Positions 52,129 through 57,987 of a stretch of DNA of 64,000 nt are shown here, piece by piece (the first letter of the stretch is position 1; each line of letters starts with the position of its first letter). Origin of the DNA: Aquimarina sp. BL5 (lineage in GTDB: Bacteria > Bacteroidota > Bacteroidia > Flavobacteriales > Flavobacteriaceae); NCBI RefSeq assembly GCF_003443675.1, contig NZ_CP031963.1:3247501-3311500 (forward strand), written 5' to 3'. Below the pieces are notes generated by a model. It was not told where the DNA came from. It was given only the letters and a program-made list of their open reading frames with translations, and made no database searches. The position numbers and the translations under genes are program-made.

Positions 52129-52575
52129 ATGAAAGAGCTTATTGAAACATTTTATACCGGCTTAAATGAACAAAATGCAGAAAAGATGATATCCTGTTAT
52201 CATGAAGATGTAGTTTTTGAAGATCCTGCTTTTGGAAAACTAAATAGTGATAGAGCCAAAAAAATGTGGAAAATGCTTTGTAAAAATGGGAAAGATATGA
52301 AAATAGAATTCTCTAAAATAGAAGCGAATGATCAAAAAGGGTCTGCACACTGGGAAGCCTGGTATACTTTTAGTCAAACAGGAAGATCTGTTCATAATAG
52401 TATTGATGCAGAATTCGAATTTAAAGATGGTAAAATTATAAAACATATAGATCATTTTAATCTACACCAATGGGCTTCGCAAGCCATTGGATGGAAAGGT
52501 AAATTATTAGGAGGGACCAATTTCTTTAAGAAAAAACTACAGCAACAAACCAATAGATTACTTGATAAGTTTTAA
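52129..52575 (+). CDS. NTF2-like (SnoaL-type) protein, copy 1
   Basis: The 148-aa product fits the NTF2-like cone fold: LIETFYTGLNEQNAEKMISC at the N-terminus (YHEDVVFEDPAFGKL), a central GSAHWEAWYTF strand and a late EFKDGKIIKHIDHFNLHQWA. Members are enzymes, binding proteins or adaptors; the acidic and His residues do not settle which. It is a tandem paralog of the gene at 52745, and a rhodanese gene follows. Confidence 0.9.
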   Translation: MKELIETFYTGLNEQNAEKMISCYHEDVVFEDPAFGKLNSDRAKKMWKMLCKNGKDMKIEFSKIEANDQKGSAHWEAWYTFSQTGRSVHNSIDAEFEFKDGKIIKHIDHFNLHQWASQAIGWKGKLLGGTNFFKKKLQQQTNRLLDKF

Positions 52576-52744: not shown

Positions 52745-53203
52745 ATGACAGAGTTAGTTAATACTTTTTATACTGCATTAAGTGATCACGACGCAGAAAA
52801 AATGGTTTCCCTTTACCATGATGAAATTGTTTTTAAAGATCCAATTTTTGGTGAGTTGAAGGGTCAAACAGCTAAAAAAATGTGGTATTGGCTTCTGGAA
52901 AATGGTCCAGACATGAGGATCAAATATTCTAATGTTAAAGGCAATGACTCTACAGGTTCTGCATACTGGGAGGCTCGATACACTTTCGGTTTAGAAAAAA
53001 AGCCCGTTATCAATAAAGTAAAAGCCAACTTTGAATTTGAAAATGGTAAAATAATTAAGCATACCGATGATTTCAGTTTACATCGCTGGGCAGCACAAAG
53101 CATGGGTTGGAAAGGAAAAATTATGGGTGGAACTATTTATTTTAAAAAAAAATTACAATTCAAATCCAGAACCATGCTTAAAAACTATCATATACCTTCC
53201 TAA
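52745..53203 (+). CDS. NTF2-like (SnoaL-type) protein, copy 2
   Basis: The 152-aa product is paralogous along its length to 52129-52575: VNTFYTALSDHDAEKMVSLY, DPIFGELKGQTAKKMWY, GSAYWEARYTFG, EFENGKIIKHTDDFSLHRWA. Divergence is moderate, so the duplication is not recent. It is only 14 bp before the rhodanese gene, which suggests co-transcription. Function unknown. Confidence 0.9.
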   Translation: MTELVNTFYTALSDHDAEKMVSLYHDEIVFKDPIFGELKGQTAKKMWYWLLENGPDMRIKYSNVKGNDSTGSAYWEARYTFGLEKKPVINKVKANFEFENGKIIKHTDDFSLHRWAAQSMGWKGKIMGGTIYFKKKLQFKSRTMLKNYHIPS

Positions 53204-54089: not shown

Positions 54090-55187
54090 ATGCGATATTT
54101 TCCTTTATTAGTCCTTTCTGTTTTATGTAATCTTCAAATTAATGGGCAGTCTCAGAAATTCGGTTTGCAAGATTTTTATACTTACAATTCTGAATTAGAA
54201 TACACCGTAGATTCCATCTATCATACACTTTCAGAAAAACAGCAAGTAGCCCAAATGATCATCTCATCAGCCGGTGAATTAGGTAAACCCATGGCTACGG
54301 TAAAAAAGTTGACCGAAAATGACGCCATTGGCGGTGTAGTTTTCTTAAAAGGAAGTAAAAAAACACATACGGAAAGTATTAACATCTTAAATGAGATTTC
54401 TTCCAAAAACAAAACGCTTCCGCTACTCTTTAGTATGGACGCGGAACCAAGTCTATTTGCTAGTCGTATTAAAGGAGCAAAAGATGTAGGTAAAACAATT
54501 GATATAAAAACGGAAGCACAATCAGATGCCGTAGTAAATACTATTAATACTGAACTTAGAGAAATAGGAGTTCATCATAACTATGCTCCGGTTTTAGACA
54601 TAAGTGCCAGTAATGAAGCGATCAAATCGAGAAGTTACGGCAGCAACAAAGACTCAGTGATTAGTCTAGCTAATCAATTCATAAAATGTACACAAGCAGG
54701 AGGAATAATTGCTACCGCAAAACATTTTCCTGGCCATGGATTGGTAAAAGGAGATACGCATAAACAGAGCGTTTATATTGATGGATCGCTACAAGAAGTA
54801 GCTAATTACAAGCAGATTATTGAAGATGGAGTGCTATCTATTATGATTGCCCATATTACTATACAGAATAATGAAAAATATGGAACAGATGGTTTACCAT
54901 CCAGTTGCTCCAGAAAAATTATCACTGGTTTGCTAAAAGAAGAAATGGGATTTAAAGGAGTCATCATTTCTGATGCACTTAACATTATGAAAGCAGTTAC
55001 GATTCTGGATAATGCTCCCCTATTAGCTTCAAAAGCCGGTTGTGACCTAATTTTGATGCCTCAGAACGAAAATACGACAATTAATGCTATTCTTGCTGAA
55101 ATGAAAACAAATCCTGCCTATAAAAAACAAGTAATACAATCTGTTAAGAAGGTATTGCGATTAAAGGTTTGTGGAGGAGTTATTTAG
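54090..55187 (+). CDS. Glycoside hydrolase family 3 (NagZ-like) exported protein
   Basis: The 365-aa product has a signal peptide (FPLLVLSVLCNLQINGQ) and a single GH3 N-terminal barrel. KHFPGHGLVKGDTHK is the NagZ motif supplying the Asp/His acid-base pair, and GVIISDALNIMKAV supplies the nucleophile Asp. NagZ removes N-acetylglucosamine from muropeptides; most are cytoplasmic, but Bacteroidota often export their versions. It lacks the C-terminal beta-lactamase-like domain found in longer relatives. Confidence 0.9.
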   Translation: MRYFPLLVLSVLCNLQINGQSQKFGLQDFYTYNSELEYTVDSIYHTLSEKQQVAQMIISSAGELGKPMATVKKLTENDAIGGVVFLKGSKKTHTESINILNEISSKNKTLPLLFSMDAEPSLFASRIKGAKDVGKTIDIKTEAQSDAVVNTINTELREIGVHHNYAPVLDISASNEAIKSRSYGSNKDSVISLANQFIKCTQAGGIIATAKHFPGHGLVKGDTHKQSVYIDGSLQEVANYKQIIEDGVLSIMIAHITIQNNEKYGTDGLPSSCSRKIITGLLKEEMGFKGVIISDALNIMKAVTILDNAPLLASKAGCDLILMPQNENTTINAILAEMKTNPAYKKQVIQSVKKVLRLKVCGGVI

Positions 55188-55609
55188 TGTAATAACAATT
55201 AATTTCCAAAACAATAACCTAAAGAAAACCGAATTGAATAGCTGCTTAAATTATAAATTCATCTATTTGACAAACAGATAATTATGTTTAAGTAACTCTA
55301 TTAGAAGGAGAAACGCTTTTTTTAAAGTATAAATTGAATCAATTTTCTTAGGTAAATGTTAAAGTTTATCCTGTTTGCAAAATTTCGCTATTAGCTTCAA
55401 TCTTTTAAACCTAAAATGACCCAACCCCTTTTTTACTTAACTTTGTATTAAGAGAAATTTTCATGTTTTTTTTTATACTTTTTATAATGTTTAAAAATTA
55501 ACATATCTTTAACATTTAAAGACTACAATTTTTTATTCCACATTGTTTAATAAATTTGAATTGAGTTACATCTCTATTGTGATAGTTGATAATTCTGAAT
55601 AACTTTTAG
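55188..55609. other. Intergenic stretch without recognisable gene
   Basis: A very AT-rich region after the GH3 gene with stop codons in all frames. I see no tRNA, repeat or convincing short ORF before the promoter-like sequence at 55610. Confidence 0.5.
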
Positions 55610-55639
55610 TTTAACAAAAAACAATAAATTGTAAATTTG
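55610..55639 (+). promoter_or_regulatory. Putative promoter of short-peptide locus A
   Basis: TTTA at 55610-55613 and TAAATTTG at 55632-55639 (exact TAnnTTTG) are 18 bases apart. The 11-mer TTGTAAATTTG is repeated at 56207-56217, upstream of locus B. The predicted transcript would have a ~130-base leader before the peptide ATG at 55777. Confidence 0.45.
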
Positions 55640-55703
55640 ATACCGTCTGAAGAATATTTCTGAAGGACAATTATAGCTGAAAAGTATTATGCCTTAGGAA
55701 AGC

Positions 55704-55736
55704 ATAAAAAAAGCCAGAAGTGCAATTCTGGCTTTG
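55704..55736 (-). terminator. Minus-strand terminator in front of peptide A
   Basis: GCCAGAA (55714-55720) and TTCTGGC (55727-55733) form the stem. Read on the minus strand it is followed by TTTTTTTATGC, a proper terminator. No minus-strand protein gene leads into it, so it should end an antisense RNA running across the peptide A leader or ORF. Confidence 0.7.
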
Positions 55737-55776
55737 ATAATTGTTAACCACCTTTAAATTTTTATCAAAAAATATT

Positions 55777-55836
55777 ATGGACCCAATCCAATTATTTATG
55801 ATACTACTTATTATAGTAGTGCTTAAAAGCGATTAA
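55777..55836 (+). CDS. 19-aa hydrophobic peptide A (type I toxin-like)
   Basis: The ORF MDPIQLFMILLIIVVLKSD consists of a short polar start, one hydrophobic segment (residues 6-16) and a charged end, enough for one short membrane helix. A plus-strand hairpin terminator follows 55 bases later and a minus-strand terminator stands 40 bases before the ATG. The same layout recurs at 56434. A 62-aa minus-strand frame overlapping it looks non-coding. Real translation is unproven; the gene context carries the call. Confidence 0.55.
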   Translation: MDPIQLFMILLIIVVLKSD

Positions 55837-55890
55837 TTTCTCTTTTATGGAATGAAGTACAAGGTACGACGAATTCTCACAGTCTTTTTT

Positions 55891-55921
55891 AAAACCGCCT
55901 ATTCCAGTAGGTGGTTTTTTT
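55891..55921 (+). terminator. Plus-strand terminator after peptide A
   Basis: ACCGCCTA (55894-55901) pairs with TAGGTGGT (55908-55915), one G-U pair, followed by TTTTTT. Its 3' arm, AGGTGGTT, is also fully complementary to AACCACCT in the peptide leader (55747-55754). Confidence 0.85.
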
Positions 55922-56206
55922 ATACCCACACATATAAGTGGTGGGTTACAAAAGTAAATAAAAATTGTCACTTTTTTGTTTAGAATAAACAATTTTTAAC
56001 GATTCTTTATTTCATTTAACCCCTTTTAGAGAGATTTCAGAAGCTAAACAACATAAATATTTATCATTTCTTTATTGTCATAGAATAACACTCGATTTTT
56101 AAGGTAGGAGATTTTGTTGGTTTCTTTGTTAACAACGTTCATCAACTATTTAAGGAAGTATGCGAAAATAATTTTAATTTTACAAGTGGGGAAATTAGGA
56201 ATTGAT

Positions 56207-56217
56207 TTGTAAATTTG
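56207..56217 (+). promoter_or_regulatory. -7-like box upstream of short-peptide locus B
   Basis: TAAATTTG at 56210-56217 is an exact TAnnTTTG match and is identical, with three more bases, to the box of locus A. No good -33 element is seen at the right distance, and a second weaker candidate lies at 56269-56298. Confidence 0.3.
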
Positions 56218-56350
56218 TTACTGAAATTAGGTTTGACTAATCAGTAATCTTTTAATAATCAAAAAACCTTTGTAACCAAGTACTCATTTATATTATAAAG
56301 AAATTGAGGATTGTAGAAGGAGCTTATCTGCCCAGAAGGTAGTAGGCATA

Positions 56351-56386
56351 AAAAAAAACTGATTGACCGCCAAGTAAATCAGTTTT
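56351..56386 (-). terminator. Minus-strand terminator in front of peptide B
   Basis: AAAACTGATT pairs with AATCAGTTTT (stem over 56355-56385). Read on the minus strand a run of T follows, then TATGCC, the same bases that follow the equivalent terminator of locus A. It should end an antisense transcript. Confidence 0.75.
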
Positions 56387-56395
56387 GGTAAGTTC

Positions 56396-56409
56396 TTACG
56401 TTAACGTAA
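56396..56409. promoter_or_regulatory. Perfect 14-bp palindrome TTACGTTAACGTAA
   Basis: This perfect palindrome lies 24 bases before the peptide B start codon. It could be an operator for a dimeric regulator or part of an RNA fold. Locus A has only the core GTTAAC at the matching place. Confidence 0.45.
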
Positions 56410-56433
56410 CCATACTACCACCAAAACGAAATT

Positions 56434-56523
56434 ATGAGCGTTGAAACCTTAATTTCATTAGCTGGCCTTTTGCTAGCGCTTGTTGGAGTAGTCATTAAAT
56501 GGCTAACGTACAAGAATAAATAA
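56434..56523 (+). CDS. 29-aa hydrophobic peptide B (type I toxin-like)
   Basis: The ORF begins MSVETLISLAGLLLALVGVV and ends IKWLTYKNK. It has a polar N-terminus, one membrane-length hydrophobic segment (residues 6-21) and a basic, Trp-containing C-terminus. This is the build of type I toxins such as the Fst and TxpA groups, though I see no sequence identity to them. A terminator follows 10 bases after the stop, and a minus-strand terminator lies 48 bases before the ATG. Confidence 0.7.
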   Translation: MSVETLISLAGLLLALVGVVIKWLTYKNK

Positions 56524-56532
56524 TTTATTATT

Positions 56533-56557
56533 TCCCACCCTTCGGGGTGGTTTTTTT
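56533..56557 (+). terminator. Plus-strand terminator after peptide B
   Basis: CCACCC and GGGTGG pair around a TTCG tetraloop, followed by seven T. This is a textbook terminator and strong evidence that a plus-strand transcript ends here. GGTGGT at its 3' arm also complements ACCACC at 56417-56422 in the leader. Confidence 0.92.
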
Positions 56558-56806
56558 GTTATATATCATTCCTAATAAAAGGATCATGATGCAACAAAGG
56601 TACAAATTTTTTGTATCTAAAAGTTAATAAATCCCCATTTTTTAGTTCTGCCTCACCCCTCTAAGAGAGTGTTCAAAGGGTTCGAGCCCTAGGCTAGTCA
56701 CTAATATCTATTGTCCTTTTAACCAAAAATTCAAGTTATTACGGATTTCCTCATTAGGTCAATTTATTTTTAAAATAACTTTCACATCTATATTTAAAAA
56801 CAAACT

Positions 56807-56929
56807 ATGTGTGAAAAACCCGATTATTCAGCCCAATATATAAATAAAGCGCTTGAAGAATCTATTGAAGAAGCTTTTAACGATAGGATTAAACCTTCAA
56901 ACAAAAAACATTCTAAATTTAGAATATGA
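56807..56929 (+). CDS. 40-aa ORF, possibly the start of a frameshifted gene
   Basis: The ORF starts MCEKPDYSAQYINKALEESI, is acidic and helical, and ends KKHSKFRI. If one A of the run at about 56903-56908 were removed, reading would continue through NILNLEYEHGVKKAKIGSFS. It may therefore be the 5' part of a broken gene whose membrane part follows at 56972. Not recognised. Confidence 0.4.
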   Translation: MCEKPDYSAQYINKALEESIEEAFNDRIKPSNKKHSKFRI

Positions 56930-56971
56930 ACACGGTGTGAAGAAAGCAAAAATTGGTAGCTTCTCAAAAGG

Positions 56972-57196
56972 GTTGTAAATCACGTTACTTTATTCGGAAT
57001 TATTACTCTTTTATTAATCAGAATACCTATCGTTTACAACCCTCTGGTTTTTATATATCTCTTATTGTTATTAATCATAGTTTTTAAAACAAAAAGTAAT
57101 CTATTCGAAACAATTGTAGCTCCTTGTTTCTCGATATTCTTTTCGTATTTGTTATTCTATCTTCTGCCACTTACAATAATATTGATAAGCAAATAG
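56972..57196 (+). pseudogene. Membrane-protein fragment without start codon
   Basis: An open frame of 74 codons beginning VVNHVTLFGIITLLLIRIPI and containing two or three hydrophobic segments (VFIYLLLLLIIVFKTK; FSIFFSYLLFYLLPL). It ends at TAG 57194-57196. A stop codon precedes it in frame and there is no good ATG. Two small frameshifts would join it to the ORF at 56807, giving a small membrane protein. Likely a decayed gene or two sequencing indels. Confidence 0.4.
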
Positions 57197-57273
57197 ATTG
57201 AGACAAACTTAATTGGTATATCAAAACATTAGTGCAGTAATAATTCTTAACTTTAGCTAAAAAGCTATTGAAA

Positions 57274-57987
57274 ATGATTAAGAAAATAAATGCAATTTTA
57301 TGTATACTCTTCATTCTCATTTTCGGATGTGCTTCTGATGATAACCTCCCTTTAGAAACCCAAGAAGAGGAAGAACAAACTGAGGAAACCAAAACTTTTT
57401 CCTTTTTAGCATTGGGTGACTCATATACCATTGGTCAAGGAGTTACTGAAGATGAAAGTTGGCCTTTTCAATTAAAAGACGCTTTTGCTACTCCAACCAA
57501 AAAAATTGAACAACTAACGGTAATCGCAAGAACAGGATGGACCACAAGTAGCCTTATTACCGCAATAGAAGAAAATGAACCGCAAAATCACGATCTCGTT
57601 TCTTTACTTATTGGAGTGAATAATCAGTTCCAACGCGGAGACTTTACCGTCTTTCGAACCGAGTTTGATTTGCTTTTAGATAAAGCTATTTCCCTAGCAA
57701 ATAACCAAATAGATAATGTAATTGTTGTTTCCATACCAGATTATGGAGTTACTCCTTTTGGAACCAATAATAGCGAAACAATTGCTTCGGAAATTGATAC
57801 TTATAATGCCTATATAAAACAAAAGTGCACTGAGGCTGAAATAATATTTATCGATGTGACCTCTATTTCCAGAGATCTAGGCGATTCTGAAGGATCTTTA
57901 GCCACAGATAATCTGCATCCTAGCGGATATCAATACGGTTTATGGGTAGAAAAGATCTTACCTATAGTCAAAGAAATTTTAAAGTGA
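57274..57987 (+). CDS. SGNH/GDSL-type hydrolase lipoprotein
   Basis: I use the ATG at 57274 (237 aa); a TTG two codons earlier is possible. The lipobox is LFILIFGCASD (Cys near 19). The hydrolase shows block I FLALGDSYTIGQGV (Ser nucleophile), block III LIGVNNQ and block V DNLHPSGYQYG (Asp and His). SGNH enzymes cut esters; substrate unknown. An acidic linker (about 25-40) follows the lipid anchor. It converges with dprA, with no gap between the stops. Confidence 0.92.
   Translation: MIKKINAILCILFILIFGCASDDNLPLETQEEEEQTEETKTFSFLALGDSYTIGQGVTEDESWPFQLKDAFATPTKKIEQLTVIARTGWTTSSLITAIEENEPQNHDLVSLLIGVNNQFQRGDFTVFRTEFDLLLDKAISLANNQIDNVIVVSIPDYGVTPFGTNNSETIASEIDTYNAYIKQKCTEAEIIFIDVTSISRDLGDSEGSLATDNLHPSGYQYGLWVEKILPIVKEILK

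Follow-up and report, generated by a model that had tools for sequence, protein, structure and literature searches.

Locus B of Aquimarina sp. BL5 and its relatives: a small family resembling type I toxin-antitoxin modules

We describe a new small family of peptide-encoding modules, the B family, which by comparison of its sequences resembles type I toxin-antitoxin modules both in appearance and in distribution. Its reference member, locus B, was identified in the window, that is, the whole 64-kb stretch of DNA analysed, taken from the genome of Aquimarina sp. BL5 (G000; 6.01 Mb, one contig), which belongs to the same genus as Aquimarina sp. TRL1 (G010). Locus B is probably, with a probability of roughly 0.6, an addiction module similar to type I toxin-antitoxin systems, in which a short antisense RNA would act on the leader. 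The module combines a conserved ORF under selection, a terminator on either strand and a conserved leader, and its relatives, one of them on a plasmid, are patchily distributed.

According to the type I reading, a sense mRNA of about 315 nt, starting near 56241, would encode a 29-residue peptide, predicted to insert in the inner membrane by one helix with a basic, Trp/Tyr-flanked C-terminus; unchecked synthesis of the peptide would damage the membrane potential. A putative antisense RNA of about 75 nt, read leftwards from the start-codon region to the terminator at 56350, would base-pair with the part of the mRNA leader that precedes the start codon, leading either to a block of ribosome loading or to RNase III cleavage. 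Locus A would be a second module with the same layout and a different, 19-residue peptide, and the pair may represent addiction cargo, gained and lost between replicons.

Elements of the two modules

The elements of locus B, in window coordinates, are the following.

56206-56557: locus B, whole module (sense promoter, leader with minus-strand terminator, ORF, plus-strand terminator)
56206-56235, plus strand: predicted sense promoter (TTTG at 56206-56209, spacer of 18 nt, TAGGTTTG at 56228-56235)
56323-56346, plus strand: local leader hairpin, CTTATCTGCC / GGTAGTAGG, found in the MFE folds of the leaders of B and of the TRL1 plasmid copy
56338-56419, plus strand: competing long-range pairing of GGTAGTA (56338-56344) with TACTACC (56413-56419), which encloses the antisense region just 5' of the ATG
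56350-56385, minus strand: intrinsic terminator (plus-strand A-run 56350-56358, flush with the hairpin 56356-56385)
56350-56425, minus strand: predicted antisense RNA, antitoxin candidate, about 75 nt with an uncertain start; conserved non-coding sequence upstream of the minus-strand terminator
56434-56523, plus strand: 29-aa single-helix membrane peptide MSVETLISLAGLLLALVGVVIKWLTYKNK, toxin candidate; four intact homologues, selection in the three closest copies
56535-56557, plus strand: sense intrinsic terminator with TTCG loop (-11.5 kcal/mol, z -2.63, 2/200 shuffles as good)

An earlier note on this DNA had placed a minus-strand terminator at 56351, a plus-strand terminator with a TTCG tetraloop and, between them, a 29-aa peptide with one membrane segment, all of which were recovered. 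The minus-strand terminator folds at -10.5 kcal/mol (z -2.63), with 1/200 shuffles equal or better, and the spacing from the leader hairpin to the ATG (56434) is 48 nt. A hairpin followed by a run of T is found behind the ORF in all four intact relatives of B, the run being interrupted in G303. The flanking genes, a GH3-family gene (54090-55187) and a GDSL lipase gene (57268-57987), both lie on the plus strand.

When scored against the Bacteroidota promoter consensus quoted in PMC7366714, locus B and the TRL1 plasmid copy match at 9/9 positions, at the same site, a score whose background frequency, taken from 200 random segments of the window, is 0.075 per 440-nt strand. The promoter region of B holds another perfect -7 box, TAAATTTG (56210-56217). 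No 9/9 sense promoter was found in the other six of the eight loci scanned (TRL1 chromosome, G303, A. litoralis, G003 and both locus A copies). With a predicted 9/9 sense promoter and a terminator of its own, locus B has the parts of an autonomous module.

Locus A, for which a tandem arrangement with B had been claimed, indeed lies 0.66 kb away, on the upstream side.

55632-55925: locus A module, with the same order of elements as B
55632-55639, plus strand: candidate -7 box TAAATTTG, within a 15-nt repeat common to B; 8/9 of the consensus
55706-55735, minus strand: terminator (-13.1 kcal/mol, z -3.30), also present in the G001 relative
55777-55836, plus strand: 19-aa peptide MDPIQLFMILLIIVVLKSD; the G001 relative, of the same layout, reads MELELFLMLLILVVLKSD
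55892-55925, plus strand: sense terminator (-14.8 kcal/mol, z -5.12, 0/200 shuffles as good)

The two modules share a promoter-proximal 15-nt element, TTGTAAATTTG(A/T)TAC, located at the promoter ends of both and 93% identical, together with the GCATAAAAAAA run and a short post-hairpin motif, while their peptides are, by eye, unrelated. As the earlier note had put it, A and B may be paralogous or convergent. The TATGCC context said to be common to both terminators is, within the window, common as TATGC only, locus A reading TATGCTTTCC; the full TATGCC is found in the G001 relative of A. The latter also features a promoter candidate, TATCTTTG, matching at 8/9 and at a comparable distance. The locus A promoter candidate is weak, the background for at least 8/9 matches being 0.74 per 440-nt strand.

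It is possible, if rather doubtful, that A and B represent a Bacteroidota-specific type I superfamily, in which unrelated toxin peptides would be swapped into a common chassis (promoter element, leader and antisense terminator GCATAAAAAAA), control being exerted by two exclusive leader pairings and by an antisense RNA whose site of action lies before a start codon without Shine-Dalgarno pairing.

The genome G001 holds the one recognised relative of locus A, whose peptide likewise ends in VVLKSD. A search for locus A relatives matched 4/66 genomes, two of which, G306 and G308, were inspected and lack such a layout; a second one, at E 0.1, matched 35/66, all matches besides G000 and G001 having E >= 0.001. 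In 18 loci taken from these weaker matches (L221-L238) no layout was found by the detector described below, and searches of plasmid DNA with either the A. litoralis module or the locus A module gave zero matches. The G001 stretch around the relative (L272:11342-18932) contains a methylase-like gene, an SPFH gene, a SRAP peptidase and two ORFs with no Pfam match.

The shared layout was also searched for as such, with a detector requiring a minus-strand terminator, an ATG ORF of 15-45 codons with a hydrophobic stretch and a plus-strand terminator. With thresholds chosen when both loci were already in view, the detector returned exactly two matches over the 64 kb of the window, both strands included, namely A and B, in agreement with the earlier claim of two modules with the same order of parts and different peptides, and none in 40 block-wise Markov shuffles. 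The same note had proposed a structural search for further cases, and the strict detector does find them: in 238 fetched loci (1.41 Mb, redundant and in many cases chosen by similarity) it produced 22 rows, corresponding to six distinct places, all of the family, namely A, B, the TRL1 plasmid and chromosome copies, A. litoralis and the G001 relative of A.

A further 800 kb, made up of 20 stretches from G000 and 20 from five relatives, gave four matches with the strict detector, three of the family and one other; the three relatives with known copies were thus recovered. The relaxed detector gave nine matches in the same stretches, three of them of the family. The lone other strict match is an 18-aa hydrophobic ORF, MYLAYAIMTIVFTLSLVR, in G000 (L249:15380-15436, minus strand). 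Silence of the detector is no proof of absence, because the G303 copy and the decayed G003 copy are missed.

Relatives of the B-type peptide gene

Beyond B, the family comprises four intact copies, located on the TRL1 plasmid, on the TRL1 chromosome, in A. litoralis CCMR20 (G313) and in G303, which belongs to another genus of the same taxonomic family, plus one decayed copy in G003. The TRL1 copies are recognised at the DNA level (plasmid, 82% over the full length; chromosome, 74% over query positions 55-354), and the peptide profile identified those of A. litoralis (E 1.4e-9) and G303 (E 9.9e-8). Peptide identity to B is 72% for the TRL1 chromosome, 66% for the TRL1 plasmid, 59% for G303 and 48% for A. 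litoralis. The start codon and the amino acids are conserved across the five intact copies, B included; conservation of the start codon had been named in the earlier note as a point to check, and the ATG is kept in 4/4 intact relatives.

To judge from the pattern of substitutions, the B-type ORF is truly coding and under selection. In the three closest copies, 14/25, 10/18 and 10/19 of the differences fall at third positions (one-sided p 0.016, 0.043 and 0.065), and amino-acid identity is above that of random mutation, an identity as high arising in 16, 136 and 0 of 5000 simulations, respectively. In-frame upstream ATGs in both TRL1 copies (L002:1689-1814; L012, minus strand) would extend the peptides to 41 and 36 aa. 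A conserved upstream ORF was rejected, the extension being found in the TRL1 copies only; none is present for B, by a first-ATG detector, or for G303, by eye. The G303 copy lies directly behind another ORF and lacks the 5' part of the leader.

The family is thinly scattered. A peptide search of the genus (E <= 0.05) matched 6/66 genomes; intact B-type copies occur in three, G000, G010 and G313, and the matches in G032, G327 and G325 were dropped as partial ones within frames of 408, 67 and 499 aa, the G327 locus after inspection. Family-wide, at E <= 0.001, 2/397 genomes were found, the window's own and G303. A profile search at E 5 matched 160/249 genomes, of which G000 and G303 were kept and eight other loci inspected. 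Searching with the DNA of B at E 0.01 matched 11/56 genomes, where the matches besides G000 and G010 are short (22-60 nt) and show no layout by the detector; L003 and L005 were also inspected directly. In a search of 395 genomes six matched, those besides the window genome being partial matches inside frames of at least 240 aa; in another search, of 12 genomes, two matched, and G074 was dropped as a partial match (E 0.046).

Pattern scans returned at least 117 stretches in one set and 33 in another; among the 150 matches listed, 50 are ORFs of 15-45 aa, and A. litoralis is, by eye and by detector, the sole family member among them. A leader RNA model, trained with G303 and G000, produced one independent find, the decayed G003 copy (E 0.001), which retains the leader sequence and has a stop at codon 4; the model did not recover A. 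litoralis, whose leader differs. Searches of plasmids by tblastn are insensitive, having missed the known TRL1 plasmid copy, and tblastn confirmation rejected all 74 pattern matches from a collection which later yielded A. litoralis; neither is evidence of absence.

This distribution bears on the function of the peptide. It might be a small non-toxic membrane protein, such as a regulator or a subunit, with either an antisense RNA or a structured leader adjusting its synthesis: the peptide is under purifying selection, and many known single-helix small proteins are not toxins. However, a patchy, plasmid-borne and decaying distribution (3/66 genus and 2/397 family genomes, including the window's own) is against such a role, as is the lack of a common neighbour gene, by eye, in ORF lists which are only partly named by family, and we consider it quite unlikely. 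For the type I-like organisation proposed in the earlier note, comparative support comes from the conserved peptides and from a leader conserved in three relatives.

Leader structure and the predicted antisense RNA

The leader sequence is conserved in three relatives of B. The copies of the TRL1 chromosome and G303, which belong to different genera, have in common the non-coding sequence TTGATAAGTTTCTATGTT(C/T)AACAA, followed by a TGCTAC. A peptide gene alone does not account for such conservation, across genera, of the non-coding sequence from the hairpin to the ATG.

The hairpin of the minus-strand terminator folds on the plus strand at -10.0 kcal/mol (z -2.06, 8/200 shuffles as good). Its direction is therefore set by the U-run only, since both strands fold nearly equally well. 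In 6/6 copies (B, both TRL1 copies, G303, A and G001) an A-run directly adjoins the hairpin on its left. On the right side, B and the TRL1 plasmid read TTTTGG, the TRL1 chromosome TTGA, and G303 and A TTTGA; the T-run thus has 2-4 nt in these five copies, G001 alone having a long one. Because the A-run is kept in six copies and the T-run is short in five, the terminator for the most part points to the minus strand. Such an asymmetry is the pattern expected from selection for a minus-strand terminator, although the hairpin by itself folds similarly on either strand.

Two other assignments of the hairpin were judged unlikely: a leader attenuator in the sense direction, in view of the 2-4 nt T-run after the hairpin in five copies (longer in G001), and the terminator of a neighbouring minus-strand gene, both flanking genes (54090-55187 and 57268-57987) being on the plus strand. 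Two minus-strand ORFs, one of 62 aa over locus A (55804-55992) and one of 86 aa overlapping the GDSL start (57171-57431), were regarded as presumably spurious.

The leader can form two mutually exclusive pairings. GGTAGTA pairs either with CTTATCTGCC, just upstream, or, in a leader lacking its 5' part, with TRCTACC immediately ahead of the ATG. In long transcripts, the best single pair of the local helix has a probability of 0.999 in B, 0.99 in the TRL1 plasmid copy and 0.83 in the TRL1 chromosome copy, whose transcript was taken from -180 and whose MFE leader fold uses another register; in the nascent TRL1 chromosome RNA the local helix falls to 0.26. After 5' truncation, the best pair of the long-range helix reaches 0.88, 0.36 and 0.54, respectively. 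With the 5' arm omitted, the long-range arms pair in 4/4 leader MFE folds, the register being shifted for the TRL1 plasmid. The long-range stem is paired in 96.4% of cells, with one pair changed on both sides; its covariation in four sequences is no better than shuffled (258/500 shuffles as good). On the basis of these folding models, a leader switch between the two pairings is possible.

The promoter of the antisense RNA is the weakest link of the type I reading. No minus-strand promoter of at least 8/9 was found between ATG and terminator in any of the eight loci scanned. Weaker candidates align only in part, and none is listed for G001 or G003. Minus-strand 8/9 sites occur elsewhere, at +77 in A. 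litoralis (inside the ORF), +137 in the TRL1 plasmid copy, -206 in the TRL1 chromosome copy and -93 in G303, a number which does not exceed the chance expectation (0.74 per 440-nt strand). The predicted antisense strands are not unusually stable, either at locus B (96 nt, z -1.13, 26/200 shuffles as good) or at locus A (z -1.67).

These data leave some room for a peptide gene with a cis-regulatory leader only, in which A-run and hairpin would be an mRNA element, a ribosome standby site or an attenuator, and no antisense RNA would be made. The missing consensus minus-strand promoter, the two exclusive leader pairings and the about equally good fold of the hairpin on the plus strand are all compatible with it, as is the report that Bacteroidia ribosomes do not recognise Shine-Dalgarno sequences (PMC9976891). 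Yet plus-strand T-runs of 2-4 nt in B, both TRL1 copies, G303 and A (long in G001) make a sense attenuator unlikely, and the minus-strand U-run is retained in 6/6 copies; on balance, a leader without antisense RNA appears unlikely.

Known systems and genomic sites

None of the five B-type peptides matches a Pfam or NCBIfam family at cut-off, NCBIfam giving one sub-threshold LPXTG-anchor match. The two libraries include the type I toxin families Fst, Ldr, Hok, Ibs, TisB and others, none of which was matched by the five peptides at E <= 10, in searches whose filters drop most matches above about 0.1. The 19-aa peptide of locus A is below the minimum length for a profile search. Rfam 15 gave no match in the window at gathering score; at relaxed E, five matches were found in 55188-57017, the best being RF02636 (E 0.013, 18.3 bits versus a gathering score of 730).

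Some sub-threshold resemblance to phage holins was detected. Phage_holin_2_3 (PF16080; cut-off 28.8 bits) is matched below cut-off by three of the five peptides, those of A. litoralis (21.8 bits, E 1.8e-4), the TRL1 chromosome (16.9 bits, E 0.0066) and B (14.0 bits, E 0.052), helix and flanks aligning to profile positions 21-49 of 56; Phage_holin_2_4 is matched, also below threshold, by B (E 0.039) and A. litoralis (E 0.083). B-type peptides might accordingly be holin remnants or derivatives, in which one of the two helices of a holin was taken over as an independent peptide for lysis or killing. Against such an origin, which we hold to be very improbable, no match reaches the gathering score, the peptides of the TRL1 plasmid and of G303 do not match these profiles at all, B is half as long as the family, and no phage gene was recognised next to it. 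Moreover, annotated phage genomes match the DNA of B only at the last part, the terminator (10 records), and two leader patterns found 6 and 12 stretches in viral contigs, none of which has the layout.

The type I systems AapA1/IsoA1 of Helicobacter pylori and ZorO/OrzO of E. coli resemble locus B in having a short single-helix peptide, a long structured mRNA leader and an opposite-strand RNA over the leader, the last being only predicted at B. In AapA1/IsoA1 the antisense RNA reportedly targets the leader. In contrast to both systems, B has no toxin-family match and a Bacteroidota promoter, and its antitoxin RNA and toxicity are predictions only. The geometry of antisense pairing in Fst differs from that predicted for B. 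Duplication is another shared trait, the tandem of A and B recalling zorO-orzO and zorP-orzP in E. coli (PMC3919570). B-family peptides are also similar to the plasmid-borne, 29-residue Lpt and Lpt-like peptides of Lacticaseibacillus plasmids (PMC11352940) and to the plasmid-borne membrane peptides of the Fst/Ldr family (PMC7472228), which likewise have charged ends; unlike these, B comes from a different phylum and has no such profile match in Pfam or NCBIfam.

According to PMC12390103, which in 2025 added a first cyanobacterial case, knowledge of type I systems had been confined to Proteobacteria, Firmicutes and Tenericutes. Seven putative type I pairs have been proposed in B. thetaiotaomicron (PMC7366714), of the same phylum as B and likewise with cis-antisense organisation and candidate small ORFs. 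Compared by description, those pairs derive from RNA-seq calls, with a small ORF in each opposed gene, whereas B derives from comparative genomics. The main text of PMC12654330 contains no mention of Aquimarina or Flavobact-, and a literature search, with most subscription journals outside its coverage, found no characterised Bacteroidota type I case among the papers listed. The conserved, partly plasmid-borne B family of Flavobacteriaceae offers concrete loci for studying antisense control of a toxin in bacteria with ribosomes that ignore Shine-Dalgarno pairing; Bacteroidota could also gain from it a part for plasmid stability.

The earlier note had considered a mobile or fast-evolving family plausible, a view which gains comparative support from the plasmid copy, the decayed copy and the absence of the modules from the site in collinear genomes. 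The plasmid copy is carried, unannotated, by NZ_CP053591.1 of Aquimarina sp. TRL1 (63,637 bases), which is typed as non-mobilizable; it is surrounded by hypothetical genes, with an integrase about 3 kb off and a relaxase and transfer genes nearby. In the window, both modules fall within one variable stretch.

55188-57017, no strand: variable stretch with both modules, absent from the site in 5/5 collinear same-genus genomes

Out of 20 other genomes of the genus with a relative of the GDSL protein, six were fetched, the sixth of which, G313, is not collinear. In the remaining five (G017, G028, G025, G312 and G032), blastn at E 1e-3 found no match to 55253-57017 between the collinear flanks, two of them matching up to 55211 and 55252. 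In G017, two adjacent bases of L300 correspond to window positions 55186 and 57249. Homology restarts at 57020 in G025, where this point falls inside a DUF3667-like gene, and likewise in G312 and G032. Absence of the modules from these genomes could also reflect loss.

The window region around 57018-57205 seems to be the 3' part, the only one kept, of this DUF3667-like gene, which is longer in G025 (L302:4744-5325; 26.2 bits, just below the cut-off of 27), and the front of this gene appears to have been replaced by the stretch carrying A and B. At the same site, G028 (L301) features a different 3.2-kb insert with a 1046-aa ORF, so that the place between the GH3 and GDSL genes looks like an indel hotspot.

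A 20-nt inverted repeat, 80% complementary (55600-55619 / 56607-56626), brackets A and B, perhaps by chance. Defence-like genes lie next to two of the relatives: the decayed G003 copy adjoins a nSTAND3/Mrr-type gene (L277:7471-9798, minus strand), and a PIN_8 gene (L275:16232-17536) starts less than 1 kb from the A. litoralis copy. Upstream in the window, two related small proteins of about 150 aa are encoded in tandem (52129-52575 and 52745-53203), to which a single place of match corresponds in the stretches fetched from G017, G025, G312 and G032.
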